NCBI GenBank assembly: GCA_963576785.1
Contig: OY756146.1
Span: forward strand, 1,550,001-1,614,000
Length of the DNA stretch: 64,000 bases
Origin: Chlorophyllum brunneum
Lineage: Eukaryota; Basidiomycota; Agaricomycetes; Agaricales; Agaricaceae
Direction: 5' to 3'
Within the stretch, counting starts at the first letter, position 1. Every line of letters starts with the position of its first letter. This document shows positions 35,934 to 63,180 of the stretch, in pieces. The notes below the pieces were generated by a model. It was not told the DNA's origin, made no database searches, and saw only the letters and a list, made by a program, of their open reading frames with translations. The translations under genes and the position numbers were made by a program.

Positions 35934-36233
35934 TGTTACGAATCATAGGCCGTTCATTCCTATCATGCGCCCGTTACCTCGTGTACTCTCATACTTGTTT
36001 CATCTCCTGTATCACCCTAGAGGCGGTGCCTCCTACCTGACTCGTTCTACCCCTCTCCTCTGACTCCGTTACTCGACTCCCTTATTATTAGCCTCTACCA
36101 CTAGTATATAAAGTGTAGTAATACTTGATGTATTCCTTACACTTTACCAATCGTATCATCCCTTCTTCCCTTCTCTACTTCCTTTCCTTTATCCAAAGGC
36201 TTGCAACCTGAGTCAGAGACTAAGGTCGTAACA
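35934..36233 (+). repeat. Gypsy 1 5' LTR
   Basis: 300 bp, TGTTACGAATC...GGTCGTAACA, so the ends form TGTTAC/GTAACA. It contains TATATAAA at 36105-36112. Confidence 0.96.
36105..36150 (+). promoter_or_regulatory. Gypsy 1 core promoter and predicted self-primer RNA start
   Basis: TATATAAA (36105-36112) lies 34 bp upstream of ACACTTTACCAA (36139-36150). That 12-mer is the exact reverse complement of the bases at the primer-site position (36235-36246). If transcription starts at 36139, the RNA's own 5' end would pair with the primer site, as known for fission yeast Tf1. The start site itself is inferred. Confidence 0.75.
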
Positions 36234-36234
36234 T

Positions 36235-36246
36235 TTGGTAAAGTGT
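36235..36246 (+). promoter_or_regulatory. Gypsy 1 primer-binding site, self-priming type
   Basis: TTGGTAAAGTGT begins one base after the 5' LTR. It pairs perfectly with LTR bases 36139-36150, and no match to the usual initiator-tRNA tail was noticed. The equivalent position in gypsy 2 (near 60699-60709 on the opposite strand) keeps the same complementarity. Confidence 0.75.
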
Positions 36247-36326
36247 CACTCAACTCACCTTGCAAGAGAGGTGCCACTATTCGTAGCTAGGCTTGGAATA
36301 ATAGCCTCCGACCAGGACAACAGTAT

Positions 36327-40500: not shown

Positions 40501-41080
40501 AATCACGGAAAGAATACAAGAACTGCAGGACATATGCCAAGCAACGATCAAAATGCTCCAACAAAACCAGATACAGATGGAAAAGCGAAACAGCACAAAG
40601 CCAGAACACGAGTACCAAATAGGAGACCAAATTTGGCTGGAAGCAGACAATATTAGGACAACAAGACCAACAAAAAAATTAGATCACAAGAGATACGGAC
40701 CGTTCCGAGTAAAAGAAAAAATAGGCGAAACAAGCTACCGCCTGGAGCTACCTGAAACATGGGCGATACACGACGTATTCAACAGCAGACTACTTTCCCC
40801 CTATCACAACCCCGAGTATGACAGCCAGCGCACTCCGCCACCACCGATCCCCGAGATAATTAACGATGAAGAACACTACGAAGTAGACGAAGTCCGAGGA
40901 CACCGCATGAAAGGGAAACGAAAACAGTACCTAATACACTGGAAAGGATATACGTCCGAAGAAGATACATGGGAAGACGAAACAAACTTAGACAGCGCCA
41001 AGGAAGCAGTACAAGAATTCATAAGCAAGATTTCGAGGACGAAACCTATAAAAAGGGGAGGTAAAAAACAGCAACTATGA
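37553..41080 (+). CDS. Gypsy 1 pol: protease, RT, RNase H, integrase, chromodomain
   Basis: The frame is open from 37553 to the stop at 41078-41080 and has no internal stop. It overlaps the end of gag in the -1 frame, so it is probably made by programmed frameshifting; no ATG fits the start, and the first recognisable pol residues lie around 37658. Domains in order: protease TLVDSGCTHT (about 37748); RT with KDGTKRLVQDYKKLN, LDIIWGYNNVRI and the catalytic YMDDF (38728); RNase H VEVDASGYGVGAVLS (39170); integrase zinc finger HPGQHK...CDTCQRNK, catalytic blocks SIDMIGPLP, SDRGPQFAS and DGQTERINQ; then a chromodomain (about 40869-41030) with YLIHWKGYTSEEDTWE. The chromodomain classes it as a chromovirus; it is known to steer integration to chromatin marks. 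All catalytic residues are present. Confidence 0.96.
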   Translation, partial: TRNRGERGFCRRLRVGANPRANKTRVSVLSHNRRYVIPQKRNSTRELLLDSTIQTRKGRRQITTLVDSGCTHTCIAQRTIDEEQIPTKPLETPIRVINADGTENKKGEITDKAQLVLNNGNHTEQIDALVTQLESADLYLGHDWLVKHNPEIDWNNHVIRFTRCPEDCKTSHSNIRFNEKIRTVKEHIEEKKADRTDDEDLPPYLRQYTHLFNKKNFDNLPAHTVWDHEINLSEDAPPVLQSKVYPMTITEKQELQKFLDENLASGRIRPSQSPYATPCFFIPKKDGTKRLVQDYKKLNEYTIKDKTPLPLISEVLDRLKGAKVFNKLDIIWGYNNVRIRKGDEWKAAFVTNNGLFEPTVMFFGMSNSPATFQRMMNTIFRELLHEGTLVNYMDDFVIPGTTQEELEKRTTRFLDIAAKHQLYFKRSKCMFDAKEIPILGFVVGQGSVKMEEEKVKAVREWPTPKSVKDVEKFLGFANFYRRFIQDFSNIATPLHELKKKDAQWSWSERQQQAFEEIKKKITSEPVLAMPRDKGQYRVEVDASGYGVGAVLSQDQDNQWHPIAFHSRTMTPAERNYQIYDKELLAIREAVKTWRQYLLDADEPFEIWTDHKNLEYFRKPQQLTGRQARWQLELQEYHYTLKHIPGKTNTKADVLSRLTKTDTTRDNTDITLLPDHLFDNTTTEIRQMWDISGEEDLKHRLRKEQRRETQWLREKEKRPEEIWETDGLPIFEGRIYVPPNTELRQEILQQHHDKTDVGHPGQHKMIELLKRTYWWPQMRNDVKRYIKGCDTCQRNKILRTRPTTHLHLLPIPTGPWEEISIDMIGPLPESEGYDAILVIVDRFSKMIRLRAVNTTLSSEELGDIYRDDIWRQHGIPRRIISDRGPQFASKFMAELCKATGTQRNLSTAYHPQTDGQTERINQDVEAYLRNVINHAQNNWKKWLSTAEFQYNDKTHSATGHSPFQIVYGRHPWKGDISNEIKAPAITERIQELQDICQATIKMLQQNQIQMEKRNSTKPEHEYQIGDQIWLEADNIRTTRPTKKLDHKRYGPFRVKEKIGETSYRLELPETWAIHDVFNSRLLSPYHNPEYDSQRTPPPPIPEIINDEEHYEVDEVRGHRMKGKRKQYLIHWKGYTSEEDTWEDETNLDSAKEAVQEFISKISRTKPIKRGGKKQQL

Positions 41081-41177
41081 ACAGCAAACCTCGCATCTCA
41101 AGTAACCACTACACTCATCGCATCACTCGTGGTATTCACTTCACCCTTGACTTTGCCAACTATCTCTACAATACACC

Positions 41178-42014
41178 ATGCCCGCCGAACGCCAACTTAC
41201 CCCGTACCCCTACCTTGCAGAATTTGAAGAACTCGTCCCAGAAAGGACCAACCAGGAAGAAATCGTAGAAGGAGAAACCCTAGTTGACACCATAATACTA
41301 CTGGGAGCAGCAGTAAAAGCAACCCAAGAAGGAGCCTCGAAAATTATGGACACCTTATCCGACGCCACTCCAAGACTCAATCAGTTCATCATCAACGAAG
41401 GAAGGAGAGACCAACTGGAGAGACACTTGTACGAGATTAACGACGACTTGCAACTCCTCGTTATCTCCAACATACGAGCTCGGATGCACAGTATCCTTGT
41501 AGCCCTAGCAGAACGACTCAATACGTACGAATCCAGAAGCACAGACAACCTCTCCCACCACATCGTTAATCGACTACTCGTTAGTAACGACCCATTCCCC
41601 ATCCAACACCACATCTGCCACACATGCGAACAAAAGACGCAAGAAAGAACCGCCGCCAACCAGCTACTCCACCCCGACATCGAAGAGGAAGTCGCTCACC
41701 TCCAAACCATACTCACCACGGTAGTACCCCCCATCACACCCATGACTTTCCACCCGCCGACAGGATATAACACTTTGAAATCAGAAGGAGAAAAGGACAA
41801 CGATTATTGGAAAGAGACCGTGTACAAACTTTTAAGCAATCACACCAACGACAACACTACGTACAACAACCACACCCACTTCCTATTTAAAGAAGGACCA
41901 CCACACGCACCCCTCTGGATTGGTTTACGACGTGTTGACAAGACACCTCTCATTGGAGGAAACAAGAAGGACTTGGCCAGAGCTCTGGGAGCAGCCGTAC
42001 CTATGAACGAGTAA
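41178..42014 (+). CDS. Gypsy 1 third ORF, unknown function
   Basis: 278 aa from an ATG in good context, 97 bp after pol, ending 117 bp before the 3' LTR. I recognise no domain. It has no signal peptide and no membrane segment, so it is not a retroviral-type envelope protein. It looks helical and acidic: TLVDTIILLGAAVKATQEGA, RRDQLERHLYEINDDLQ, MHSILVALAERLNTYESR. A possible metal pair HHICHTC sits mid-protein, and GLRRVDKTPLIGGNKKDLAR lies near the C-terminus. A clear homologue occupies the same position in gypsy 2 (48761-49587), so the ORF belongs to this family and was retained across divergence. How it is translated (separate RNA, reinitiation) is unknown. Confidence 0.85.
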   Translation: MPAERQLTPYPYLAEFEELVPERTNQEEIVEGETLVDTIILLGAAVKATQEGASKIMDTLSDATPRLNQFIINEGRRDQLERHLYEINDDLQLLVISNIRARMHSILVALAERLNTYESRSTDNLSHHIVNRLLVSNDPFPIQHHICHTCEQKTQERTAANQLLHPDIEEEVAHLQTILTTVVPPITPMTFHPPTGYNTLKSEGEKDNDYWKETVYKLLSNHTNDNTTYNNHTHFLFKEGPPHAPLWIGLRRVDKTPLIGGNKKDLARALGAAVPMNE

Positions 42015-42118
42015 AAACACTCGTCGGGTTCTTTTTTTCTTAAAACTTTAACAAATTCCATATGTTCTATCTTACAAAGGACCTTTACAGTAATACGTAC
42101 CATGAGGACATGAAGCTT

Positions 42119-42131
42119 GAAAGGGAGGTAT
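42119..42131 (+). promoter_or_regulatory. Gypsy 1 polypurine tract
   Basis: GAAAGGGAGGTAT directly abuts the 3' LTR at 42132. This is the expected plus-strand primer site. The same tract abuts the gypsy 2 3' LTR at 48654 on the other strand. Confidence 0.8.
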
Positions 42132-42431
42132 TGTTACGAATCATAGGCCGTTCATTCCTATCATGCGCCCGTTACCTCGTGTACTCTCATACTTGTTTCA
42201 TCTCCTGTATCACCCTAGAGGCGGTGCCTCCTACCTGACTCGTTCTACCCCTCTCCTCTGACTCCGTTACTCGACTCCCTTATTATTAGCCTCTACCACT
42301 AGTATATAAAGTGTAGTAATACTTGATGTATTCCTTACACTTTACCAATCGTATCATCCCTTCTTCCCTTCTCTACTTCCTTTCCTTTATCCAAAGGCTT
42401 GCAACCTGAGTCAGAGACTAAGGTCGTAACA
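42132..42431 (+). repeat. Gypsy 1 3' LTR
   Basis: 300 bp, no difference seen from 35934-36233 when read side by side. Confidence 0.96.
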
Positions 42432-45525: not shown

Positions 45526-46990
45526 TCACATATAGTCATATACATAAATGGTCTGGCTATTTATCCAAGTATCTATATTGGCTAAGATTGCACTCTGTGC
45601 ACCCAGTTGAGAGTCTTCTTGGACATCAGCAATGCATACAATACTCCTGCAGCAATCTTCAGATTTGTGTGAAGAGCTAGTGAGATTTGGCTTATCTGCC
45701 ATTGCTTCATTGGAGTAATCCTTATCCTCCAATTCTATTGATACTGCATCCTCATCTTTTTTGACAATGGTTGGAGCAGGAATGCTTATGACTGAAGTGG
45801 CAGCTGGAGTGGTGCTGAACAGTTTGTCAACTTCCATGATGGAGGTAGTCATCAGAGGTGAGGCTAGTTGGTAGAGAGAAGTGCTTCCCATGTATTTCTC
45901 ATAAGAATCCAAGGCTTTTGCCTTGGTAGCCGCATACAGAGTTGGGCAGTACCAAGGATCCTGAGTTTTCTTCTTAGCAGGATTCTTGATCTACAAGAAA
46001 AGGGAAGGTGGGAGAGGTACTGAGAACTGCACCTCATTAATAAGACTGCAAGTACTCTTCTTTAGATTAGTAGTCAACTTGGTAAAGCCAAAGTTGACCG
46101 AATCCATTGTATATGCCAGTTGCCCAGTATTGTATCCAGAGGGAGCTGGTTGCCCAGCATCAACCTTGTTGGCTCAGCCTTTGCTACTACTCCTTGCACT
46201 GCATTGCCTCTTCTTCTTATTGCTATCCTCCTAAGGCTGCTGCTACTGTGGGGGTCACTGTTACTGCTGCTGCTGAGGGTGCAACTACTGCCCTGGATAC
46301 TGCTGCTTCTGTGGGGGACTGTGCTACTACTGCTGCTACTGTCCCTAATAGCAAGGGGGCATGCCTTGTGATTTAACACTGGTGAACTTATTCACCAATT
46401 GGTTTGCCTTAAGTGTTGACCAATGGTTCATAATAGCCCTGTGGACCAAAGCAAAGGTGACTGTGGGAATCTGGGTATTTACCATTAAGAAGGGTGTAAT
46501 GATATTCCAGGCATTTGGAATGCCAGAAAGAAGAGTCATAGCCTTAATGATCTTGGGTATGACACAATTGTTATTAGTGTCAAGCTGTTTGTACAGAATA
46601 GCGAGCTTGGCAATTGGGCCGGAGAGGTCCTCATTTGGATGGAGATAAAAGTGGATTGTCTCAACATACTTAAAATAGAGTCCAGAGATGGACTTTAAGC
46701 TGTATGCAGTATAAAGATACACTCACATGCTGTTGATGTTGGGGAGATTCCCCTTGATTATCTTGGCAGGTAGTTTACTCTTGATAATTGAGTAAACTAC
46801 CCTGTGCATGTGCACCCGAGCAGCATGTTTGATTGCCTTCTGCCCTGTAGAAGGGGGAACAATCACATAGGTAGGGACTAGGATGTGAATTTACAATAAG
46901 GAAGTTAGCAGAAATTCATCACTGATGATAGAAGTTCTGTTGGTAGAGAAACTAAGACAAGAGCATTCTGCATTCAGTCCACTCACTTAT
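45526..46990 (-). pseudogene. Copia B gag, disabled
   Basis: The minus strand reads STGQKAIKHAARVHMHRVV, SKLPAKIIKGNLPNINSM, a TGA where an Arg codon is likely, then HPNEDLSGPIAKLAILYKQ and AMTLLSGIPNAWNII, followed by a Gln/Ser-rich low-complexity segment (about 46200-46350, CAG-like runs) and CRSIVCIADVQ. The layout matches a copia gag. Upstream of about 46990 the copia sequence stops and AT-rich mitochondrial-like DNA begins, so the true start is not defined. Confidence 0.75.
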
Positions 46991-47039
46991 TATAATTGGT
47001 GGTTCCAGAAAATTTTAACTTACTTAGGCTGCTGTAGCT

Positions 47040-47400
47040 TTATAGCTATAATTGTTATAGTTTGTACTAATGGATTAAAGTAATTTGTAGTATCTGGTAA
47101 AGAATTAATTGATACTCTTAAATATCCATATGTAGCTAATTTCAAAATTGTAGCTGCTAGAATTATTGAACCTACTAAAGATGAATCAGCATGAGCTTTA
47201 GATAACCAAATAATAAATGGATATAATGGAGTTTTAACTGCAAAAGCTAAGAAGGATCCTAACCATAATATTTTTTGGCTATCTAAACTTATAAAATATA
47301 ATGAAATTAATTGGAAATCAGTTGAACCTATATAGCTATATATCATTAATATACATAATAACATAGGTAAACTACCAGCTAAAGTGTTATTAGCAAAGCT
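47040..47400 (-). pseudogene. nad4: Mitochondrial nad4 fragment in nuclear DNA
   Basis: About 120 codons read FANNTLAGSLPMLLCILMI, SQKILWLGSFLAFAVKTPLY, PFIIWLSKAHADSSLVGSII, LAATILKLATYGYLRVSIN and FNPLVQTITIIAI. The blocks KTPLxPFxIWLxxAH, GSIILA and LKLATYGxLR are the core of NADH dehydrogenase subunit 4 (a proton-pumping antiporter-like subunit of complex I). Both ends are truncated: the 5' end abuts an endonuclease remnant and the 3' end stops mid-protein, so it can only be a remnant. It remains open as a single frame, which suggests a fairly recent transfer. Confidence 0.9.
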
Positions 47401-47406
47401 ATTCAA

Positions 47407-47512
47407 ACTTACTTCCCTTTAATGGGTACTTATCAAATAAAGATAATAAAACTTCTACTATTTCTTCATTAGATCTAACGACAAAAGTGATATTGTTGTT
47501 TATTGTACAAAA
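47407..47512 (-). pseudogene. LAGLIDADG endonuclease C-terminal remnant
   Basis: The minus strand reads NNNITFVVRSNEEIVEVLLS then LFDKYPLKGSK. The FDKYPLxxxK block is typical of mitochondrial intron-encoded LAGLIDADG homing endonucleases. It sits directly upstream of the nad4 exon fragment, as an intron-borne gene would. Confidence 0.7.
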
Positions 47513-48095
47513 AAACAAAGCTGCAGCCTACCTTTGCAATTTGTAATAAGCAATAACTGTAAACAGCTGGGAAGGTTTAAAAAAATAATGTTAACCTATC
47601 AAGTTTAATTTAATTTAGTTATAGTGTTTAAATTGCCAGGTTTTTAGGTAAAAAGCTTAATTTAGTAATCTGTTTTTAGATAAAACAAAAAGAGACAAAA
47701 TTTAGTGCTTTTTTTGTTGTTTTAAGCTTAAACTATCAGATAATCTATAAGTGTTTGATAGTTAAGTATTTAAAATTGTAACAAAGTTGGCTTAACCTAA
47801 TAGTGTAGTAGTGGTAACTTTGTTATAACCTACTACCAGAGGTTAGCTTCAGAACACTATCTTTGAAACAATTACAAACAAAGAGACTTGAACTCTTATG
47901 GGTTTTTACCCAAAGAAATCTGAACCTACTCCTACAAATAAATCACTAGTCATATAACCAAACCTACTACAGTTCCTACTATTAAAGATAATAAAGAACT
48001 AATTACAAAATATATACTTATTAACTTTATTATTTAACAAAAACCTAGTTTTACAACATCGTAAGTCTCAATTAGCTTATTGAATTCAAGCTATA

Positions 48096-48236
48096 AATAA
48101 TAGAGTTGTGTTGCCAACATTGCTAAATTTAGGCAAGTTAAATAATCTAAAAAAAATAGAAAATTTAGATAAACTAATTAAACCTACTTTACAAGATGCT
48201 TGGTTATCAGGGTTTACTAACATTGAAGGCTACTAA
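48096..48236 (+). pseudogene. LAGLIDADG endonuclease fragment, second motif
   Basis: 47 codons ending KPTLQDAWLSGFTNIEGY and then a stop. This is the second conserved motif (WLSGFTDAEG) of the double-motif LAGLIDADG enzymes found in fungal mitochondrial introns. It is on the opposite strand to the nad4 piece, so the segment is rearranged or drawn from more than one mitochondrial locus. Confidence 0.8.
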
Positions 48237-48359
48237 AATTAAATATAACTAATATAAGATATTATATCTTTGGCTTAAAATTAGTAAGTAACAATAAAAT
48301 TAGAAAAGCAAATCATAGATCAAAAGGAACCCAGGGCTCCAAGCGGCTATTCTTGTAAC

Positions 48360-48653
48360 TGTTACGACCTTAGTCTCTGACTCAGGTTGCAAGCCTTTGG
48401 ATAAAGGAAAGGAAGTAGAGAAAGGAAGAAGGGATAATACGATTGGTAAAGTGTAAGGAATACATCAAGTATTACTACACTTTATATACTAGTGGTGGCG
48501 GTTAATAATAAGGGAGACAAGTAAACGAGTCAGATGGGAGGCATAGCCTCTAGGAGTGAAACAGGGAGTAAAACGAGAAGTGAAACAAGTATGAGGGTAC
48601 ACGAGGTAATGGGCGCAAGATAGGAATGAACGGTCTATCTATAGTTCGTAACA
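48360..48653 (-). repeat. Gypsy 2 3' LTR
   Basis: 294 bp; about seven transition differences from 60711-61004. Clearly related to the gypsy 1 LTR, including the ACACTTTACCAA complement. Confidence 0.94.
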
Positions 48654-48760
48654 ATACCTCCCTTTCAAGCTTCATGTCCTCATGATGCATATTACTGTAA
48701 AGGTCCTTTGTAAAATAAAACATACAGAATTTGGAGAAGGTAGGAAAATGCAATGAGAAT

Positions 48761-49587
48761 TTACTTGTTCATAGGTACAGCAGCTCCCAGAGCCCTGGCC
48801 AAGTCTTTCTTGTTTCCTCCGATGAGAGGTGCTTTGTCAACACGTCCTAAGCCGATCCAGAGGGGTGCATGAGGTGGTCCTTCTCTAAACAGGAAGTGGG
48901 TGTGATTGTTGTATGTGGTGTTATCGTTGGTATGATTTCCTAAGAGCTTGTGCACTATACTCCTCCAGTATTCGTTGTCCTTTTCACCTTCCGACTTCAA
49001 TGTGCTGTATCCTTGCGGTGGGTGGAAGGTCATGGGTGTGATGGGGGGTACTACTGTAGTAAGGATGGTTTGTAGATGGGCCACTTCTTCTTCGATGTCG
49101 GGGTGAAGTAGCTGGTCGGCGGCTGTTGCTTCTTGTGTCATTTATGACAGATGTGGTGTTGGATGGGGAATGGGTCATTACTAACAAGTAGTCGGTTGAC
49201 GATATGGTGGGAGAGGTTGTCTGTACTCCTTGACTCGTACGTATTGAGTCGTTCGGCTAGGGCTACGAAAATGCTATGCATCCGAGCTTGCATATTGGAG
49301 ATGACAATAAGTTGCAGGTCATCGTTGATTTCGTATAGGTGTCTCTCCAATTGGTCTCTCCTTCCTTCGTCGATGATAAACTGGTTGAGTCTTGGAGTGG
49401 CATCAGATAGTGTATCTATTATTTTAGATACGCCTTCTTGGGTTGCTTTCATTGCCGCACCCAATAGTATCATGGTGTCGACTAGGGTTTCTCCTTCCAC
49501 GAGCTCCTCATGGCTGGTTCTTTCTGGGATGAGTTCATCGAATTCTTTGAGGTAGGGGTATGGAGTAAGTTGGCGTTCAGCGGGCAT
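48761..49587 (-). pseudogene. Gypsy 2 third ORF, frameshifted
   Basis: Homologue of the gypsy 1 ORF at 41178-42014. It starts MPAERQLTPYPYLKEFDELI at 49587 and runs to HHICHK, where a short deletion relative to gypsy 1 shifts the frame and brings a stop (49138). The remainder continues in another frame (49141-48761, EEEVAHLQTILTTVVPP to ALGAAVPMNK). Similarity along the whole length supports the ORF as a true family gene. Confidence 0.88.
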
Positions 49588-49684
49588 GGTGTGTTATGAA
49601 GATAGTTGGCAAAGTCGAGGGTGAAGTGGATACAGCAAGTGATGCATTGAGTGTAGTGGTTGCTTGGAATGCGAGGTCTGTTGT

Positions 49685-52600
49685 TCATAATTGCTGCTTT
49701 TTACCTCCCCTTTTTATAGGTTTCGGCCTCGAAATCTTGCTCATAAACTCCTGTACTGCTTCCCTGGCATTTTCCAGATTTGCTTCATCTTCCCATGTAT
49801 CTTCTTCGGACGTATATCCTTTCCAGTGTATTAGGTACTGTTTTTGTTTTCCCTTTGTGCAGTGTCCTCGGACTTCATCTACCTCGTAGTGTTCCTCATC
49901 ATTGATTATCTCGGGGATCGGTGGTGGCAGAGTATGCTGGCTGTCATACTTGGGTTTGTGATAGGGGGAGAGGAGTCTGCTGTTAAACACGTCATGTATT
50001 GCCCATGTTTCAGGTAGCTCCAGTCGGTAGCTTGTTTCACCTATTTTTTCTTTTACCCGGAATGGTCTGTATCTTCTGTGATCAAGTTTTTTTGTCAGCC
50101 TTGTTGTCCTAATATTATCTGCTTCAAGCCAAACTTGGTCTCCTGCCCTGTACTCGTGTTCCGGTTTTGTGCTGTTCCATTTCTCCATTTGCGTTTGGTT
50201 CTGTTGTAGCATTTTGATCATCTCTTGGCGTATGTCCTGTAACTCCTGTATTCGCTCCGTGATCACAGGTGCCTTGACTGTGTTTGAGATATCCCCTTTC
50301 CATGGATGTCGTCCATATACTATCTGGAACGGTGAATGTCCTGTGGCGCTATGTATTTTATCGTTATACTGGAATTCTGCTGTGCTGAGCCATTTCTTCC
50401 AGTTGTTCTGTGCATGGTTGATTACGTTTCTGAGGTATGTCTCAATCTCCTGGTTGATGTGCTCCATCTGTCCGTCTGTTTGTGGATGGTATGCCATGGA
50501 TAGGTTACGTTGGGTGCCGGTTGCTCTGCAAAGTTCTGCCATGAACTTTGATGCAAATTGTGGGCCTCTGTCACTGATGATCCTGTGGGGTATCCCATGT
50601 TGTCTCCATATATCGTCACAATAAATATCTCCTAACTCTTCGGATGATAGGGTGGTGTTAACTGTGCATAGTCTGATTATTTTGCTGAAATGATCAACGA
50701 TGACAAGTATTGCATCATATTCGTCTGATTCTGGCAGTGGTCCTATCATGTCGATTGATATTTCTTCCCATGGTCCGGTGGGTATCGGTAGTGGATGGAG
50801 ATGTGTGGTAGGTCATGTCCGGAGTATCTTGTTTCGCTGACATGTGTTGCATCCCTTGATGTATCGTTTAACATCATTGCGCATTTGTGGCCACCAATAT
50901 GTCCTTTTGAGGAGTTCGATCATTCTGTGCTGTCCCGGGTGTCCTATGTCTGTTTTGTCGTGGTGTTGTTGGAGTATTTCTTGGCGTAACTCGGCGTTTG
51001 GTGGTACATATATTCTTCCTTCAAACATGGGTAATCCATCAGTTTCCTATATCTCCTCTGGTTGTTTCTCCTTTTCTCTTAGCCACTGTGTTTCTCTTCT
51101 TTACTCCTTTCGTAATCGGTGTTTCAGGTCTTCTTCTCCCGATATTTCCCAAATTTGTCTGATCTCGGTGATAGTGTTATCGAATAAGTAGTCGGGTAAT
51201 AGCGTGATATTTGTGTTGTCTCTGGTTGTGTCCATTTTTGCTAGTCTTGATAGCATGTCTACTTTCGTGTTTGTCTTTCCGGGTATGTGTTTTAGTGTGT
51301 AGCGATATTCCTGTAATTCCAGTTGCTATCTTGCCTATTGTCCTGTGAGTTGTTGCGGTTTCCTGAAGTATTCTAAGTTCTTGTGGTCCGTCCATATCTC
51401 GAATGGTTTGTCGGCATCGAGTAGGTATTGTCTCCACGTTTTGATTGCTTCTCGGATTGCTAGTAGTTCTTTGTTGTAGATTTGGTAGTTTTGTTCTGCC
51501 GGTGTCATTGTTCTCGAGTGAAAGGCGATTGGGTGCCACTGGTTATTCTGGTTTTGTGATAATACCGCTCCTACTCCGTATTCTGATGCATCCACTTCTA
51601 CCCTGTATTGTCCTTTGTCTTGAGGCATTGCTAGTACTGGTTCGCTCGTGATCTTTTCCTTGATCTTCTCAAATGCCTGTTGTTGTCATTCTGTCCATGA
51701 CCATTGCACATCTTTCTTCTTCAGCTCGTGTAGGGGTGTTGCTATGTTACTGAAGTCTTGTATGAATCGTCGGTAGAAGTTTGCAAAACCCAGGAATTTT
51801 TTGATGTCTTTCACGGATTTGGGTGTTGGCCATTCTCTTACTGCTTTCACCTTTTCTTCCTCCATTTTGACGCTGCCTTGTCCCACTATAAAGCCCAGTA
51901 TGGGTATTTCCTTTGCGTCGAACACACATTTTGATTGCTTGAAGTAAAGCTGGTGCTTGGCTGCAATGTCTAAGAACCGCGTTGTTCTTTCCTCGAGTTC
52001 TTCCTGTGTGGTTCCTGGAATGACAAAATCGTCCATGTAGTTGACAAGTGTTCCCTCATGTAACATTTCCCGAAATACCGTGTTCATCATCCTCTGAAAG
52101 GTTGCTGGTGAATTGCTCATCCCGAAGAACATGACCGTAGGTTCGAATAATCCACTGTTTGTTACAAACGCTGCCTTCCATTCATCCCCTTCTCTGATCC
52201 TGATGTTGTTATATCCCCAAATGATATCGAGTTTGTTGAACACCTTCGCATCCTTTAATCGGTCTAGAACTTTGCCTATGAGTGGCAGTGGCATTTTGTC
52301 CTTGATGGTGTGTTCATTCAGCTTTTTATAATCCTGTACCAGGCGTTTTGTTCCATCCTTTTTTGGTATAAAGAAACATGGGGTGGCGTAGGGGGATTGT
52401 GATGGTCTGATTTGTCCTAAGGTAAGGTTCTTGTCAAGGAACTTCTGTAGTTCCTGTTTCTCTGCTATTGTCATTGGGTAGACCTTGGACTGTAGTACCG
52501 GGGGTGCATCTTCAGACAGGTTTATCTCATGGTCCCATACCATGTGCTCGGGTAGTTTATCAAAGTTCTTCTTGTTGAATAGGTGGGTGTATTGTCAGAG

Positions 52601-53215
52601 GTATGGTGGTAGATCTTCATCATCCGTCCGGTCTGCCTTTTTCTCTTCAATGTGTTCCTTGACTGTCTGTATTCTCTTGTTGAACCATATGTCGCTATGT
52701 GATATTTTGCAATCATCTGGGCATCTGGTGAATCGTATGATGTGATTGTTCCAATCGATTTCCGGGTTATGCTTGACCAGCCAGTCGTGTCCAAGATATA
52801 AGTCTGCGCTTTCCAATTGTGTTACTAGAGCATCGATTTGTTCCATGTGGTTGCTGTTGTTTAATACCAGTTGTGCCTTGTCCGTTATCTCTCCTTTTTT
52901 ATTTTCTGTTCCGTTGGCATTGATTACTCTGATCGGGGTCTCCAGGGGTTTAGTTGGGATCTGTTCTTCATCTATCGTTCGTTGTGCTATGCACATGTGG
53001 GTGCATCCGGAGTCTACGAGGGTTGTAATTGGTCTGCGTCCTTTTCTTGTCTGGATTGTTGAGTCGAGGAGAAGTTCGCACGTAGAGTTTCATTTCTGGG
53101 GGATTACATATCGTCTATTGTGAGATAAAACAGAAACTCTAGGTTTATTGGCTCGCGGGTTTGCGCCTACTCGGAGCCTTCGACAAAATCCTCTTTCTCC
53201 TCCATTTCTTGTTCC
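49685..53215 (-). pseudogene. Gypsy 2 pol, disabled by stops
   Basis: All pol domains are present in order but interrupted: protease part around 52996, RT with YMDDFVIPG (52543-51686), RNase H VEVDASEYGVGAVLS (51628-51335), integrase zinc finger HPGQHRMIELLKRTYWW (51028-50813), catalytic core SDRGPQFASKF and DGQMEHINQ (50749 on), and the chromodomain YLIHWKGYTSEEDTWED (about 49790-49850). Premature stops or frame breaks lie near 52560-52600, 51686, 51335, 51050 and 50810. The enzyme functions are as for gypsy 1; this copy cannot produce a full polyprotein. Confidence 0.92.
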
Positions 53216-53811
53216 TTGTCCTCGTTGATTTCTCTGATATGCGCTTTCTTGGGCGCTTAGCAGTTTTTCGAGATGTGGCCCTGCTTGCCACAATTGTAAC
53301 ACGTTATCTTGGTGTATGTGACTTTTGTCTTCTTCCTGCAGTATTTGGCAATATGCCCATAGAGGTTGCAGTTGTAGCACCTCGGTTTTCCATTTTGATC
53401 GGTGTCTGCCCTTTGTCTTCCTATCTCCATGGGTTGTCCTCTACCTCCATAAGTAACTCCGGTGGTGGTTCTGACATCTCCTCGGGTGATGTCTGTTGCT
53501 TCATACCCTTGTCCTACTGTGAGGATTGTAGTTTTCCATTTGGTGTATGTTGTTGGGACGGAGGTTGTTGGGTAGCCTACTATGGTTCAAATGATGTCTG
53601 CTCTGGTGTGGCATTTGAGGAGGAATATTGTGTGGGTGTTGTCTGTCCCCGCTTGGGCTTTCAATGCCTCGAATTTGATTAAGAAATCTGCCGTGTTCTT
53701 CTTCCCTTGTTTGAACGTCTCAATTTCTCCTTCTGCTATGGCTTTCCTATTTCCCAAGGAAAATGTGGCCTCTATTTCCTTTGTAAAGTCATCCCAATCT
53801 GGTGTTTTCTT

Positions 53812-53816
<5 letters not shown>
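53167..53816 (-). pseudogene. Gypsy 2 gag, 3' part
   Basis: The minus strand carries the end of the capsid region and both zinc knuckles (around 53380-53260, complement of the CCHC codons), ending at the stop 53167-53169. The first part of the gene is 6.2 kb away at 60007-60617 beyond the LINE. Confidence 0.88.

Positions 53817-53844
<28 letters not shown>
53813..53844 (-). repeat. LINE poly-A tail
   Basis: An uninterrupted run of about 32 T on the plus strand. It marks the 3' end of the reverse-transcribed RNA. Its survival without substitutions suggests the LINE is younger than its gypsy host. Confidence 0.92.
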
Positions 53845-53850
<6 letters not shown>

Positions 53851-54285
53851 ACAATTTATATAGCAGTGCTTGAACGCAGTCTGCGTGTACATACATACAA
53901 AGGCAGAACGTACAGAATGTTCGGAGAAGGGAGAGTAAACTACAGGTAAACTAACCCCACGAGACTCGTTGTCATCTAGCACATACACTAGAGAGATGTT
54001 TGGTACCTACGATGTTCAGCGAAAAGAGAGAAGGAAAGGGATTCGGAAAGAGAGAGAGTGAGAGAGAGAAATTGATAGAAGAGAAACTATCTACTTGCAA
54101 TCACAAGGGGGAACATCAAACGGTACATAGTGTGTGGGCAGGTATTTACCCTGGCGCTACGGGAGAGATGGTAGTTGAATGAAAACTATATAAAATAGTA
54201 GATGAGCGAAAAAAGGGAAGATAGAGAAATGAATTGGAAATCCATAACCGGGGGAGCAAAAGAAAAAAGAGAAAAGAAAAGGATC

Positions 54286-57200
54286 CTATGCAGGCGTAGA
54301 CCCAAACCTCCTTTGGACTTGATGACGATGTAACAGTGGGATAGAACCGGCACGGATACGAGGGCGTTCAGATTCCAGGGGGAAACTGAATGTGGTGGGG
54401 TTGCGATGCAAGAAGTTGACAAAGGTCTTGATTGTGTCGACGCCAAAGTGATGATCGAAGTTGTTACATCGATACAGGATGTGTGACCACGTTTGCACCA
54501 TTTGACTGTTGCAGTGGTGGCATGAAAGGTCCTCGTTAGGAAAGAATTGTAGTCGATATTCTCCAATCGGGGCATGGCATAGGATGGCGCGACAAGCTCT
54601 TGCAAAGAGTTGGGGCTGGTATCCGTATTCTTGTATCCATGGACCAGACTTGATGTGCGACGGTAAGGCGGAGGCTCCATTCGCTCGCACCGGGAGGTGG
54701 AGGAAGGAGCTACTGCTGTAAGTCTTGAACCCAAACATGGCCTGCCATGTGTGAATAGCGCGTTCGGCAGACTTCTTGCGAAGGTAGTCAATCGAGTTCG
54801 GTACTCGGTGATTTCGACCCCGGTTAGGCCAGGCGACCGTTTGGATCCAGTCGTGCATGGCTTTTTGTATCCCGTACTTGCATTTCGACGGCATGTGATA
54901 GAACGAAAGGCGGTGATGGTCTGACTTGTTAAACCAAGCCAGGAGCGCCTTCGAGGTGAGGATGGACTGTTGTTGGCAGGAATGCGGTGAATAGTCGAGT
55001 AGGAGCCAGGAGGCCACGATGGAGTCGGTGAACACATGAATGTGCTCAACCTGGTCATAGTCAGCAGTAGCGAGCACTTTGGTAATACCTAAGTACTGCG
55101 CTACCAGTTCTGTGTCTGTCGACGTGGTTCCTCCGAGCTTCTTCATAATAGAGCTCCCGCCGTCAAGATGTTGAATGGTAGCTGCCGCCGTAAACTGGCT
55201 GGCAAGCAGATTGGGATTGGGGTGGACCGAGCCGTCCATACCGATCGTGATGGATTTTGCATCCGTCGTTGCATTCATCGTTACATCGTCCCAAAGCGTC
55301 TTTGAGAGGTGAGGGTTGTCCCGGTTGAATCCTATAAAAGTTACATTAGTAGAGAAACGGTCAAGTAACCTATGTCCGGGCCAAAGAGATTTAGAAACGG
55401 AATTAAAATGTTCTATATACCGAGTCTCGGGGGTGGGGTGCGAAAAATCCATCACAGCTCCAAGTGTCTTCTTCTTCTGAACCTCCGTGAAGTTCTTGAT
55501 GTGAAGTCGGTGGGGGGAAGAATGATACTCTTTCGTCAATCTTGCCAATGCGTGTTCATCGTCCAACGTATGAAGCCTCGACGATTGTCGTTTGGCCAAC
55601 TTTCGGAGATGTAGTTTGATGGGCATGAGCCCCGCGAGGGACTCTACACCACCGGTGGGAGAAGTACGGAAGGCCCTAGTAATCCAGAGTGCCGCCCTTC
55701 GTTGCATTTTGTTAAGGATCTCACAAGTTCCCTTGGTATGAGATCGATCGTGAAACCATAGTCAGAATCCGTATGTCGCAACCAGTACAACACATGAACG
55801 GTAGAGTAGTCTCTTGTTGCTGGGGGATAGACCCCTGATGGAGTTTCCCAGCATTTTCATTGCCTTGATAGTGGATATCGCCTTGGCGGAATAAAATCGA
55901 ACGTATTCTTTGAAGGTCAACATCCGGTCGAAATAAAAGCCGAGATACCGCCAATGGGTCTTCGGTTTGAGGGGGTTGCGACCTGTGAACAGCGGGGATC
56001 CCAAATCAATTGAGGGATTCGAGTCCTGTCTTGCATGCGTGAAGTGAAAGATCTCGGACTTGCTGTGTTCAATTTCCAGGCTGAATTTGTTCATGAGCCA
56101 CTCCATTTCACGGTACATGTGTTGCAGGATTTCCACGTTCTTCTCCAGAGACAGGGATTGCATGATTAAAGTGCCGTCATCGACGAATGACAGGACATCA
56201 AAGTCCCACTTGTCGCGGTGTTCCTCCATATAGGTGTCAAAGACGTGTAAAAGAGGGGTGAGGAATAAAGCGGAGAGAATAGGGCTGAGGGCTGAGCCCT
56301 GACCTACTCCCACCACTACGTCGTATTCCGGGGAAGTTTCATTGTTCCACCGGTAGGTAGTGCGGCGTTCTTTTAGGTAGTTGTTGAAGAACGCTGTGAC
56401 CTGGGGGGGAAATCCTTGTCGTCATAGGATTTCGATAAGGAGATCGTGGTTGAGGGAGGGGAAGAACTGGGCTACGTTGAATGCAAGCACCGATGTTTTC
56501 TTTTTCTTCGTCCAAGCTCCCCGGATAATGTGTGTCAGGAAGAGACCCGCGTCCTCAGTAGACCTCTGGCGGATTGCTCCCAATTGGTGCAGATGGAGGA
56601 CTTTGAATTTAACAGCCTCGAATTGGAGTCGCTTGGCGAGCATTTTCTCGATGAGCTTGCCAAACGTGTTAAGGAGGACGATCGGTCAGAACGCCTTCGG
56701 AGTGGAGTAGTCGGGTTTATTGGGTTTTGGAATAATCACCAACGTTGACTTTTTGAAGTGGGTAGGCCAGTGTCCGATGTTCAGACACGCACTACCGATT
56801 TTGAGGAATAGACCGGCGCAAGTTTCATTGGCGACAATCTGTTTTAGATGGGACCAGGAAATATGGTTGGGACTGGGGGAGGAAGAGTTTGAGGTATCCT
56901 TGAGTGACTCCATCATCTCTAAGAGAGAGAAATCTACCCAAGTCCTATTCTCCATTCCATTTGGGGGAGAAAGCTCGTCCAGTACTGCCATGTTCGTTGG
57001 TCTATCACGGGCAGCATTGTAATGGGAGTTGAGAGCCGTCCACAGATTGTCTAGTGTGAGACAAGGCCGACCGTTGTGACATATGGCTTCCGTGGCCGGA
57101 AGTGCGGGGTCTTTAACCCATGGCATGAGATTCCACGGGCATTTTCGGTCGACGGAGATTTCTTGTATCTTCTTGTCGAAGTAGACTCTTTTCGTTTTCC

Positions 57201-58335
57201 TCATGGTCTTGCGAAAAGTGTTCCACTTACACTTGTTCTTGCGGTCTGCATGGTGCGTAGCGAGTGCGGTCGAGCACTCCTCGTTCCACCAGATCTTGGA
57301 TCTAGTGGTGATCTTGGTTGTCTTCGCATTCCGAGTCCACAATCTGTCAAATAAAACTCCCAATTCGGCAACAGCTCTCTCCAGCTCATCCGCATCATTC
57401 ATCGGCCAGTTCTGGTTCTTGATTCCTTCTATGATGTCCATCAGGAATCTGGTTTCCTCTTCCGAGTCTTTGGGGATGGTCAATCTTTCGACAACGACAT
57501 CCATCTGCGGAATAGGTAACCTGATTAGCAGGGGGGCATGGTCTGAGTTGTACTGATCACCGTCCTGGATAGCGTGGGAGGGAATGTGTGGTAACATTCC
57601 CGAAACAAAGATTAGGTCAATAACCATGTCTGGTAAGTTGGGGTCCGAGGCATATTGCATTGGCTTGGCCTCAGACGGAGTTGTCCTCACAAGATTGAGG
57701 GCTTCGGTGACCATAAGGAGTCAGTCCGCACTTGCCAGATGTTGATCCGTTGACGGGTCCCATAACTCTGATCTGATGTTGATATCTCCTCCCAGAAGAA
57801 GAAAGGGCGGGAGGTCGAAGAGTCGCTCCTCGAGGAAGTGGAGTGCAGTATTGCAGCTGTCATTATAGACATTTAACAGCAGTAGTTCTTCTCCTCCCGC
57901 ATATAGTGATATACACAGGAGGTCTCGATGTTTGCTTATGTCTCTTCGGATGGAGGGTCGGAGTCGTTTCAGCCTTTTATGAGCAAAGGCGAGGACTTGC
58001 GGGGTGGTGCGGTGTTCCATGTTGACCGTACGTTGAGGGTATCGTCGGCGTCCCACTTGTAGGACTTCTTTGGCAATAAAAGGATAAGAAAGGAGAGTCC
58101 AGTCCGGGTAAACTGGACCTCCCACGAGGGGTGCTCCGTCATTAGAGACAGATAAGGGAATGTCTCGGAGGTATCTCCAAGGGGGTTCTTGTATGAGGAG
58201 GAGGTTGACATCGCCTCTACGTGTGAGAACTGTCTCCATCACTCCATACGATCTACCTACGTTGTGAGAGCAGACCTTCAACTCGTTCAGTAGTGAACGA
58301 GGAGGCCTGTCTTGCTTACCGGGGACGTTATTCAT
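54286..58335 (-). pseudogene. LINE ORF2: endonuclease, reverse transcriptase, RNase H
   Basis: Starts MNNVPGK at 58335. The AP-endonuclease shows LLIQEPPW, LLGGDIN and a later SDHAP. RT follows with LVIIPKPNKPDYSTPKAF, FNVAQFFPSLNHDLL, GVGQGSALSP and the catalytic FVDD (SFVDDGTLIM). RNase H shows IGMDGSVHPN, TDTELVAQYLG and HVFTDSIVASW (the D-E-D residues). A CHHCN...WSHILYRC zinc-type tail lies before the stop at 54286. Four in-frame TGA codons interrupt it (near 57719, 56694, 56420 and 55760), at least three of them where CGA arginine is expected, for example in place of Arg in RPIVLL. All catalytic residues survive, so the copy was active shortly before. Confidence 0.93.
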
Positions 58336-60000
58336 TGAGGGGGGGTAGTCTGGCTTCGGCTAGCCTGGGATGGAGAGGAGGCGGGTGATGGTACTCCTTT
58401 GTTCGCTCGTAGTTCGAGCGCCTTGTTTGCATGCCAGTCATGGTCAAATCTCTTCCTCCAGAACTGACATTTTCGGTCAGTAGCGAGGTGGTCCTTGCCA
58501 CAGTTGGAGCATGTCACCTTGTGAGGGCATGGTTCTCCGAGGGGGGTAGCCGCAATAGGTGGAGTGGCTTTATCGTTGCCCTTGCAGCAGTGAGCAAACG
58601 ATCTGTGGTTGGTGGTAGTATGCGGCCCTTTGCAGTGCGTGCATGTGAAGAGTCTTGCTCAGCAACGGACGAGGGGGTGGCCCCATCTGCAACACTTGGA
58701 GCAGAATGGGACTCCTGGGTTGGCTGTGGCCTTCCTAATGCAGAAGAGCCCTCCATAGATATTGAGGAACTTGTTCTCGATTTTTGCAACATTGGTCCCC
58801 GCTTTCGAGTCCCAGATTTCGAACCACACCATACAGGTGTCCGAATGTTTTGAGTTGCATCGTACATGTGGTTGCGACACGAATTGGATGGCGTCGGAGT
58901 GGATGGAACTCCAGACGCTGGAGACCATATCGGCCTCAGTGAGGATCTGTCCTCTGGGGGTGATGTAACTTACGTCCGTGACTTTCACAAACGACTTGGA
59001 CTTAGGGAGGGTGGCATCACCTGTAGTGATCCCTCCGAACTTCTCCTTGAGCCACGCTTTGACAACATCGAGCTCAGCAGGGGTTAAGACCTCCGAGGTG
59101 TGGACCATAAGGCCCAGCTTACCCTGCGAGGCGGCAATAACCCTCGTTTTGGACTTCTCCGCGATCAGGCACGCATTGAGAGAGTCTATGATGGCCCCGA
59201 AGTTGGTGACGGCAGGACCCATGAGGAGGGGAATGATCACTTGCTTTCGCGAGGGACCATTAAGGGTGGAGCGAATAGTCCCAGCTTTATTGGCTGGTTT
59301 CTTATTCGCCAGGGGGGCGGAAGGAGAGTAAGCGGCATCGTACATTGCCACAATCTTCTCATTGGAGAGCTCGGGGAATTTACTCGCAAACTCTAAGAGT
59401 TTGAGAGGATCCCTAGCGTTGGTGGTGGGAACGGCGTTGGAAGGGGTCTTCTTGGCTGCCATCGAGGCATAGGAAGATTTCGCTCCTTCCTGGGGGTTGG
59501 TTCCCTTATCGTTGGGTGCGGGAGCTGGAGTTTTGATGGCCTTGGCAGGCGCAGTGGCGGGGGTGGCCGTGGTGGGCGCAACAGGAGTCGTCTTTTTCGG
59601 CCTGGGGTTTCCTGGAGCCGGATTTCTCGGTTTCCTGGCTCGCTTCTTCTTTCTGTGAGCCACGGTCTTAAACTCCACTTCGGAGATCATTTGAATGTCA
59701 TCATCAGAGATACCCGAATGAGTGACATCATTGCCATCGGTGATACCTAGAGTGACAATGTGTTCAATGACCTCCATGTGGACGTCATCAGTTTTGCGTG
59801 TGGGGCCTTTGGAGGCCACGGGGGGGGGGGTGTGCAATGTCCAGCTGAGGGGAACCCTCAGCATGGACAGCGTACTTACCAAAATTCTTCCTCAACCAAC
59901 CTTGGAGATTGTTCTTCTTTTCATCGACTATTACCTTAAGCCATCCCTTCTTACTCAAGGTCTCTGTCAGTTCCGAGAATGCTTGGCCAAATGCCAATCC
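58332..60000 (-). pseudogene. LINE ORF1 (nucleic-acid-binding, zinc knuckles)
   Basis: An N-terminal piece reading GLAFGQAFSELTETLSKKGW and LQGWLRKNFGKYAVH runs into a run of ten G (59820-59829), after which the protein continues in another frame (VASKGPTRKTDDVHMEVIE). A Pro/Ala-rich linker, a core with GPAVTNFGAIIDSLNACLIA and VVKAWLKEKFG, and knuckles CSKCCRWGHPLVRC, CTHCKGPHTT and CSNCGKDHLATDRKC follow, the usual three-knuckle end of fungal Tad-type ORF1. A TGA at about 58657 replaces an expected Arg codon. Its own stop overlaps the ORF2 start as ATGA (58332-58335). Confidence 0.88.
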
Positions 60001-60006
60001 TTCGTC

Positions 60007-60617
60007 GGTGTTTTCTTGTTTTGGATGGCTTGTAGCTGCGTGTTGGTGTAAGGGCCTGCTAGCCCCCCTTTCATTCTCACCAAAATTGCTACTATCTTCT
60101 GTTCTTCTTCCTCTATCTTGTTGAACATTAACCACAAGGATATTGCTCTCCACCAATCATCAAATCTGGTTCTATCTCCATTGAAATATCCTGGCTCTGG
60201 GGCTAGGTTCTTTGGGATGTTGATTTCTTCTGTCATTTCTGGTTCTGTCTCTAGTTCGCTGTGTTCGTTTCCGTGGGTCTCGGCGATTTCTATATCGGCT
60301 GTGGCGTCGGCGACTTCTGTGTCGATTTCTTCTTCAGATGGGGGCAGTTCCTCATCTGTGCTGTGTTTGGATTCTTTCTTGTAGGTCTTGGCGATATCTA
60401 TATCGGGTGTGTTCTCGGCGACTTCTATGTCGAATTTGGTTTCAAATAGAGCTGTATTCTCGTCTATGCTGTGTTCGGATTTCTGCCGTTTAAGGCCTTC
60501 AGGGATTTCTGATTCTGTTGATCGTTTGGATCCTGTTGCTATGGGTGAACCCTGGATGTCTGTTGGTCTCGGAGCTCTGTGTTTTCTCGGTGTTCTCGAT
60601 GAGCTACTGCTGCTCAT
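60007..60617 (-). pseudogene. Gypsy 2 gag, 5' part
   Basis: From ATG at 60617 the frame reads SSSSSRTPRKHRAPRP and the acidic repeat, then WWRAISLWL and LQAIQNKKTP, where the LINE interrupts it. Compared with gypsy 1, one ALFETEFDTEV unit is missing, so repeat number varies between family members. Confidence 0.92.
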
Positions 60618-60710
60618 ATACTGTCGTCCTGATTGGAGGCTATTATTCCAAGCCTAGCTATGAATAGTGGCACCTCTCTTGCAAGGTGAGTCGAATGACA
60701 CTTTACCAAA

Positions 60711-61004
60711 TGTTATGACCTTAGTCTCTGACTCAGGTTGCAAGCCTTTGGATAAAGGAAAGGAAGTAGAGAAAGGAAGAAGGGATGATACGATTGGTAA
60801 AGTGTAAGGAATACATCAAGTATTACTACACTTTATATACTAGTGGTGGCGGTTAATAATAAGGGAGACGAGTAAACGAGTCAGATAGGAGGCATAGCCT
60901 CTAGGAGTGAAACAGGGAGTAAAACGAGAAGTGAAACAAGTATGAGGGTACACGAGGTAACGGGCGCAAGATAGGAATGAACGGTTTATCTATAGTTCAT
61001 AACA
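60711..61004 (-). repeat. Gypsy 2 5' LTR
   Basis: 294 bp, ends TGTTAT...CATAACA after transitions at both termini. It is followed on the minus strand by the self-priming-type primer site (about 60699-60709). Confidence 0.94.
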
Positions 61005-61009
61005 GTAAC

Positions 61010-61934
61010 CAGCTGAAACTTTAGATTTTTGAGTTGTAGTAACTGTACTAGTTTGCTATTTGAGTAGCAGTTACTAACCTTTGCACAGTTACCTTTATTT
61101 AACTAAAAAAAATAGACTATAAGGTTAAATGCTTTACTTAGGCAGTATCTAGCTAAACTATTATGATATTTTGTTAATCCTCAACATTCAGTTTTTTTAT
61201 AAATTAGTACTGCTAAACTAAATACTTTACAGTACTTTCATTTGTAGCCTATCTAGAAATGTTCTATTTCTCAATTAAGGTTTATAAATAAACCATTTAG
61301 TATCTAGGGGTTAGATTTTTGCTTGATAAACATTTAACACTTATCTATTATGTTTGTGGCTACCCAACTATGTATTTATTATTTTTTGTAACTACTAGAA
61401 GTTATAGCATATACCACTAACTTCGTTACTATAGCAATTAATAATTAAAAACAATTGGTACACTAGAGAAACACAGCCTATTGGTCCTTTCATATTGGAA
61501 GGTCTGCTCCTTTTTACTAATTATCCCTCCAGAAGATAGGAACCATACTGACTCACATTGTATTAAACCTAACTCACATATCCTTTTAATTGGTGAATAG
61601 CCAAACCCTTCCAAGCTTTTTCCCCTGGAGGATAGGATGAGTTGACATTGCAATTATTACTAATAACTCACTACAAATTAAGTAATACTCTTAACATTTC
61701 AGCTAAATTTAGACTATATCTTCAATGGATATAAGAATACAATTATGTAGCTTCTAGTTGTTGGCATATAGTTGTTGAGGGGTTAAGATTTTTTTAACAG
61801 TTACTTTAACCTAAAATTTTAACTTCCCTGCTGATTGTCCAATCTTTAAAATTTTTACTTGATTTTTCTAGTAGTAGTGTAGTAACCTATGGTAACTAGA
61901 AGTTAGCATTGGCACATAGAGAGCAGGCAATCCA
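61010..61934. other. AT-rich DNA of mitochondrial origin (right part)
   Basis: Continuation of the segment interrupted by gypsy 2. It is AT-rich throughout and contains the rRNA fragment below; the remaining sequence shows no gene. It ends next to the copia B primer site (61935-61946), the boundary being uncertain within about 50 bp. Confidence 0.8.
61440..61655 (-). pseudogene. rnl: Mitochondrial large-subunit rRNA (rnl) fragment, domain V-VI
   Basis: The minus strand aligns over about 200 bases with the 23S-type rRNA from the peptidyl-transferase region to the sarcin-ricin loop: blocks TGTCAACTCATC, GAAGGGTTTGGCTATTC, TTAAAAGGATATGTGAG, GGTTTAATACAATGTGAG, GGTTCCTATCT and GGAGCAGACC...AAAGGACC stand in the same order and spacing as in the bacterial molecule. 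AT-rich bases fit a fungal mitochondrial copy. It is truncated on both sides and so is a remnant. The open frame of 71 codons over it is accidental. Confidence 0.92.
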
Positions 61935-61946
61935 GGGCCCATAACC
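61935..61946 (-). promoter_or_regulatory. Copia B primer-binding site
   Basis: On the minus strand GGTTATGGGCCC directly follows the 5' LTR end. It matches the primer site of copia A (25445 onward) and copia C (63022 onward), which shows this LTR is the 5' LTR of a minus-strand copia element rather than a solo LTR. Confidence 0.88.
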
Positions 61947-62392
61947 TGTTGAATAGTACAGTACTATGTAGTAGCAGATGGATAATCTGACTTACTGATA
62001 AAGGAGTTAGTTAACATTAGAGTTACTAAGTAGAGTTGCTGAGAGAGTTGAATAGAGTGAGTAGATAATCAAGTAAATTGTCTTATAGAAATAAAGGGAA
62101 TACATACTGCTTTATATCCTAAATGTCCAGGTAGCAAACCCTAAGACCTACAAGTAATAATAGGCATAGTTGTGTCAGTAATGACACTAGAGTCCCTTGA
62201 AACACTGTGATATCATCAGCAGTATCCAGTAGTATAATTGGAGCAACAGTGATCAGTCAGCTCATGAAATACATAAGGAAGAGGTGCATAATGTGAGTCA
62301 GAGGACGCAGCCTCAATGATGAATATTAGATGAATAATATACTGCAGAGCTAGTCATACAGAATGTAGCTATAGTAAGCACAAATAACAATA
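61947..62392 (-). repeat. Copia B 5' LTR
   Basis: 446 bp, same length as its partner at 34767-35212. The flanking base string GTAAC at 62393 completes the target duplication. Confidence 0.92.
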
Positions 62393-62449
62393 GTAACAGA
62401 CAGACTGCTATGCAATATGAGGAAAAGGCAAGTACCCAAAATATATGTA
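62393..62449 (+). pseudogene. LINE reverse transcriptase fragment, right part
   Basis: After the GTAAC duplication the frame reads DRLLCNMRKRQVPKIYV, exactly the continuation expected after LDIEGAFPNVVT at 34766 in Tad-type RT. It is then cut again by the copia C insertion at 62450. Confidence 0.88.
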
Positions 62450-63021: not shown

Positions 63022-63180
63022 GGTTATGGGCCCCGGTAGCCTTACCGATGGTTAAACCATTATCATCCCCTCTAACTGAGATAGGATGATAGGGCTTTAC
63101 CTGACAGAGTTATCCTTGTATTTGATCATTGCTGATACGAGAATTTTCTTCTAGAAAGAAATACACTCGACGAAGATATT

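Follow-up and report, generated by a model that had tools for sequence, protein, structure and literature searches.

Scattered mitochondrial DNA fragments in the leader of a copia retrotransposon of Chlorophyllum brunneum: a probable complex NUMT

Background

How does mitochondrial DNA come to lie inside the leader of an LTR retrotransposon? The question is raised by a 64,000-nucleotide stretch of DNA from Chlorophyllum brunneum (the window), part of contig C8 in an assembly of 38.9 Mb and 14 contigs. An earlier note on this DNA pointed to mitochondrial gene fragments between the primer binding site and gag of a copia element, copia B, and offered two readings: a mitochondrial insertion into an existing element, or capture of mitochondrial RNA or DNA by the element before it integrated. 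Complex NUMTs, in which mitochondrial pieces of mixed orientation are joined with microhomology, are described for plants, yeast and humans in the accessible parts of several reports (PMC6215612, PMC2820518, PMC7037861, PMC9630118). We argue here that the mosaic in copia B is very probably, at roughly nine chances in ten, a complex NUMT that arose through end-joining where a resident copia copy had broken, and not cargo of the element.

Results and discussion

Copia B is an old, broken Ty1/copia element on the minus strand (34767-62392) that holds nested insertions. Comparison of the LTRs and reading of their ends placed the 5' LTR at 61947-62392 and the 3' LTR at 34767-35212, both on the minus strand. 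The pair is 91.7% identical across 445 columns and is flanked by a GTAAC target duplication (34762-34766 and 62393-62397), in agreement with the intact borders and outer duplication first described. The interior retains Pfam domains in broken pieces, namely RVT_2 (E 3.5e-34), GAG-pre-integrase and retroviral SH3 domains; the LTRs, the 5-bp target duplication and the copia-type reverse transcriptase place the element in Ty1/copia. The primer binding site was also correctly recognized: it reads GGTTATGGGCCC on the minus strand at 61946-61935, within a retained start of the native leader (61910-61946, minus strand) that matches other copies from 61910. The same primer site is found in a neighbouring plus-strand copia (63022-63033; LTR from 62450). 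We take the site of copia B to resemble the complement of the initiator-tRNA anticodon loop, as in Drosophila copia, and both elements presumably use half-tRNA priming by the initiator tRNA.

Gypsy 1 (35934-42431) sits in the 3' part of copia B, with identical LTRs, GTACC at either end and an open frame of 1175 codons that includes a chromodomain; judged from its sequence, it appears to be a very recent insertion. Gypsy 2 (48360-61004, minus strand) is a later insertion that splits the mitochondrial mosaic. Its LTRs are 97.3% identical, it contains a nested LINE (matches at 54634-56628), and its GTAAC duplication (48355-48359 and 61005-61009) is its own, separate from that of copia B.

Contig C14 is the mitochondrial genome of the assembly (59,189 bp), with both rRNAs present and ten plus-strand tRNAs up to 4.7 kb; the long gene frames that could be recognised, which follow after 9 kb, lie on the minus strand. 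It also contains an inverted repeat of 685 bp whose arms are 100% identical (L068:4032-4716 and C14:13010-13694).

The mosaic was called by blastn against C14 and hidden-Markov segmentation. It is about 2.24 kb long and mainly mitochondrial, lies between the primer site and gag of copia B, interrupted by the younger gypsy 2, and comprises 12 confident pieces of 32-720 bp with 92-100% identity to C14, eight to the left of gypsy 2 and four to the right. The source positions are scattered over mt 2.3 to 51.8 kb, with eight plus and four minus pieces. The statement in the earlier note that both strands and at least two mitochondrial loci are represented therefore holds; the note missed that the insert consists of at least 12 pieces and that the element lacks its native leader and the start of gag. 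The matches are not due to chance, since piece-wise E-values range from 4e-12 to 0. The same can be said of pieces of 32 bp or more because segmentation of the nuclear flanks of a similar array on contig C1, described below, assigned nothing longer than 18 bp to mtDNA.

Piece 1 (47008-47039, plus strand; mt 39979-40010 (+), 100%) comes from between tRNA-Met and tRNA-Val. It is followed by piece 2, the nad4 fragment recognized earlier (47040-47387, plus strand; mt 26842-27189 (+), 96.8%), in which 115 codons are open under code 4. Two LAGLIDADG pieces had been proposed, one of which is confirmed as piece 7 (48004-48226, minus strand; mt 32819-32597 (-), 96.4%); its source frame begins as cox1 and carries LAGLIDADG_1. 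The other, a LAGLIDADG-like scrap at 47411-47506 on the minus strand, scored 19.5 bits against PF00961 (E 0.0019), under the family cut-off of 23.1, and no close match to it was found in the present mtDNA or the rest of the assembly. Perhaps it is the fossil of a lost mitochondrial intron. Piece 3 (47506-47850, minus strand; mt 18099-17751 (-), 96.8%) is intergenic, piece 4 (47851-47909, plus strand; mt 46677-46735 (+), 93.2%) comes from the tRNA-Leu region, and piece 5 (47910-47959, plus strand; mt 19411-19460 (+), 94.0%) from nad5, with nad5 domains in the source frame. Piece 6 (47960-48003, plus strand; mt 10102-10145 (+), 100%) derives from an NADH dehydrogenase-type frame with a Proton_antipo_M domain (mt 9378-11174), which we take to be nad2. 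Piece 8 (48227-48313, plus strand; mt 5012-5098 (+), 95.4%) is again intergenic. Between it and gypsy 2 lie about 40 bp with a G+C-rich core (48314-48354) that were matched to neither mtDNA nor copia.

To the right of gypsy 2, pieces 9 (61006-61079, minus strand; mt 49353-49280 (-), 93.2%), 10 (61080-61142, plus strand; mt 39195-39256 (+), 91.9%, one gap) and 12 (61868-61910, minus strand; mt 2359-2317 (-), 95.3%) are all intergenic. Piece 11 (61148-61867, plus strand; mt 51045-51764 (+), 93.9%) extends from the 3' end of the LSU rRNA into a group I intron, and Rfam matches (E 1e-20 and 1.8e-14) bear out the rRNA fragment reported before.

The make-up of these pieces bears on whether the mosaic was copied from RNA, that is, whether mitochondrial RNA was captured by template switching during reverse transcription of the copia RNA and the chimera then integrated. 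LINE template jumping does produce chimeras in another fungus, Magnaporthe, for which the accessible text counts 33 bipartite loci and a single tripartite one at which transcript copies are fused, with target duplications at many of them (PMC2104539); the mosaic resembles these in being foreign sequence fused to a fungal retroelement, but differs from the cases given there in consisting of DNA scraps in both orientations at one locus. With the pieces placed by hand, eight of the 12 run in the inferred direction of mitochondrial transcription and eight of the 12 lie sense to copia, and the equal ages, within error, of mosaic and copia integration (see below) would also suit such an event. However, four pieces are antisense, and the mosaic includes unspliced rRNA-intron DNA and intergenic DNA, which makes copying from RNA unlikely. 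Moreover, no sibling copies were found among the copies examined, the gag start is lost, and the similar arrays elsewhere in the genome interrupt LINE frames. We therefore consider RNA template switching very improbable.

If the mosaic were cargo, the same cargo might be found in copies at other loci, in RNA-sense, spliced form. We compared copia B with paralogous copies within this single assembly, at 47 other loci drawn from the best 40 of 263 and the best 40 of 110 candidates; these gave 24 and 24 other places, one of which was the other LTR of copia B itself. Both sides could be read at 29 loci, representing 23 distinct places, and the remaining 18 were one-sided and uninformative. The match between the other copies and the window element reaches 47009 on the side of gag and resumes at 61910 on that of the primer site, and all 23 distinct places readable at both sides carry 234-260 bp of native sequence between these points, where the window copy has the mosaic instead. 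None of the 47 loci carries the mosaic, and scoring of all 15 candidates for its left half gave no further match over the full length. Compared with three native copies, most of the leader is gone from the window copy, together with the gag start codon and some 15 codons at the beginning of gag. Thus, among the copies examined, copia B does not share its insert with copies at other loci, and the insert itself, with four antisense pieces of 12 and with intron and intergenic DNA, is not of RNA-sense, spliced form. Another copia locus (L054:3302-3343) holds a 42-bp perfect mitochondrial match (mt 15815-15856) unrelated to the mosaic.

The mosaic has diverged from the mtDNA by 4.6%, and 82 of the 97 substitutions, read from mtDNA to nucleus, are C>T or G>A. 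Decay is strongest at CpG, where 31 of 60 sites have changed. An assembly error or contamination that put mitochondrial reads next to a copia element would not account for this decay, nor for the presence of gypsy 2 inside the mosaic with its own target duplication, and we give such an artefact almost no credence. With the mosaic set at 1, a context-specific age model, which takes the loss of sites in both LTRs into account and assumes the present mtDNA as ancestor and one rate per context at all loci, gave ratios of 1.01 (0.69-1.54) for copia B integration, 0.18 (0.08-0.35) for gypsy 2 and 0.12 (0.09-0.17) for the C1 array. The right part of the mosaic is more decayed than the left (48 of 312 vs. 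33 of 333 C sites), a difference that the model does not use. The ratio for gypsy 2 indicates that it entered much later than the mosaic, and the ratio of 1.01 (0.69-1.54) means that decay does not resolve the order of mosaic and copia B.

This last result is the first of three observations that do not favour the repair reading, as the equal ages mean that dating does not demonstrate a later insertion. Secondly, the deletion of about 250 bp at the mosaic contrasts with 0-4 bp at the arrays on contigs C1 and C7 described below, and thirdly, about 94 bp (47412-47505) and the 40 bp or so next to gypsy 2 were not assigned to the present mtDNA. Mitochondrial scraps may instead have been joined into copia DNA before integration, so that the LTR element delivered the mosaic to the chromosome. 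Of the two readings first offered, insertion into an existing copia is supported and capture before integration found no positive support; the latter is improbable and keeps its small probability only because the ages of the insert and of copia integration are indistinguishable.

One route of this kind, the joining of mtDNA scraps into extrachromosomal copia cDNA that then integrated with intact ends, would be consistent with the equal ages, with the intact LTRs and with the GTAAC duplication. In addition, experimental insertions at breaks in stationary yeast, as far as set out in the accessible part of a preprint (PMC10802722), include mtDNA fragments of 22-492 bp, complex insertions and mixtures of mtDNA with Ty DNA. 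The mosaic is likewise a complex insertion of mtDNA fragments; the yeast events given there have two to four pieces, whereas the mosaic has at least 12, one reaching 720 bp. However, joining into cDNA requires a break and rejoining within one cDNA molecule, 23 of the 23 other readable copies are without the mosaic, and the C1 and C7 arrays require no such step. We regard this route as quite improbable.

A complex NUMT remains the reading that we prefer, and the mosaic has the features of one: it derives from the organism's own mtDNA (12 pieces, 92-100% identical to C14), it brings together pieces of differing mitochondrial position and orientation at one nuclear place, and its junctions bear an end-joining signature, either microhomology or blunt. 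Overlaps at eight of the 11 junctions ranged from 0 to 10 bp with a mean of 3.0, or 2.0 without the single 10-bp overlap; junctions beside DNA matched to no mtDNA, gypsy 2 or a gap were left out of this score.

Similar arrays are found elsewhere in the assembly. The largest of those described here, on C1 (C1:1890294-1897585), packs 81 pieces, 41 of them plus and 40 minus, into 7,292 bp, with 68 mismatches and no non-mitochondrial filler assigned; piece length averages 90 bp (median 96 bp). It interrupts a LINE reading frame, and both flanks belong to one LINE. The flanks abut at the identical base in five other LINE copies among the matches listed, and the array therefore cost no LINE sequence. 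Source positions of the 73 pieces of at least 25 bp do not depart from uniform (Kolmogorov-Smirnov p 0.39). Doubly covered mtDNA comes to 366 bp, compared to a mean of 407 (95% range 150-707) for independent draws, which fits a source of more than one mtDNA molecule. Overlap at 56 of the 80 junctions, leaving out pieces under 30 bp and near-colinear neighbours, averages 2.05 bp, vs. 0.82 (sd 0.16) for random joins of mtDNA. Only two of 2000 simulations reached the observed mean, presumably by drawing the same mitochondrial place twice. The junction overlaps of both the C1 array and the mosaic fit microhomology-assisted end-joining. The 146 ends of C1 pieces show a weak excess of C six bases outside the ends (0.28 vs. 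0.16), which we do not rely on.

On C7, an array of four pieces (C7:1198289-1199206; 98.5-100% to mtDNA) interrupts another LINE frame, with at most 4 bp of LINE missing in comparison with the LINE in the window. A two-piece array (C7:213168-213387) may have been cut by a gypsy-like element, as it directly follows a gypsy-LTR-like stretch (70% to window 35955-36088). Not every NUMT in the assembly is shredded: an older one at C5:3124091-3125538 is colinear, covering mt 26.9-29.0 kb at 75-95% identity. The survey used mitochondrial stretches totalling 18.5 of the 59.2 kb, together with the mosaic pieces, as queries, and the list of arrays is therefore incomplete.

The LINE parts at C1 and C7 were recognized by comparison with each other and with the window LINE, helped by what we take to be RNase H and LINE-end motifs. 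Pfam gave RVT_1 under the cut-off in one C1 LINE piece, and neither the RNase H piece on C1 nor the C7 frame gave a retroelement domain. On most contigs the best 40 of 295 LINE candidates are confined to a single narrow region, as would be the case for centromeric clusters, and both the C1 and the C7 array are located within regions of this kind.

These arrays also bear on whether the insertion began as a single colinear NUMT whose parts were scrambled later where they lay, as fragmentation after insertion is described, in the accessible part of one report, for plant organelle insertions (PMC7037861). Against this, neighbouring pieces come from unrelated mitochondrial positions, mostly without intervening DNA, the C1 array, although younger (age ratio 0.12), already has its pieces in scrambled order, and the extent of its double coverage (366 bp) agrees with independent draws; such a history is extremely improbable. 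A persistent shuffled mitochondrial molecule was considered separately and is not supported, since one of 92 junctions in four arrays recurs, and this sole recurrence is an 8-bp length variant in two overlapping C1 pieces.

In its scattered mtDNA pieces of differing orientation, single nuclear locus and short-microhomology or blunt joins, the mosaic is like the complex NUMTs in the accessible parts of the earlier reports (PMC6215612, PMC2820518, PMC9630118). It is unlike those given there in having a copia leader as host, and the C1 array, with 81 pieces averaging 90 bp, exceeds the counts that those parts contain. A literature search for an array with some 80 pieces within 7 kb found none in the portion of the literature covered, which is weak evidence of absence. 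Complex NUMTs are already known, and the C1 array, more striking than the mosaic in the window, looks like an extreme example.

Conclusions

The comparisons show that the pieces are mitochondrial, where each of them ends, that they stand in place of native sequence, in what order the elements are nested and that the genome has similar arrays at other loci. For the mosaic we infer a break, an end-joining route and prior residence of copia B in the chromosome. Short linear scraps of mtDNA would have reached the nucleus and been joined end to end, often through 1-3 shared bases, sealing a double-strand break in the integrated element, at the cost of about 250 bp that comprised native leader and the start of gag. 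The copia B copy would then have decayed by CpG-biased C-to-T change, with gypsy 2 inserting into the mosaic later.

What appeared to be a hybrid of organelle and retroelement can thus probably be explained as repair filler. Pulverised mtDNA appears to have been used by this fungus on several occasions to close breaks: the age of one array equals that of the copia insertion, another is about one-eighth as old, and a third has hardly changed. Fragment sizes, junction overlaps and source positions are recorded naturally in the C1 array, which may help to find out what nuclease and what end-joining pathway produce complex NUMTs.
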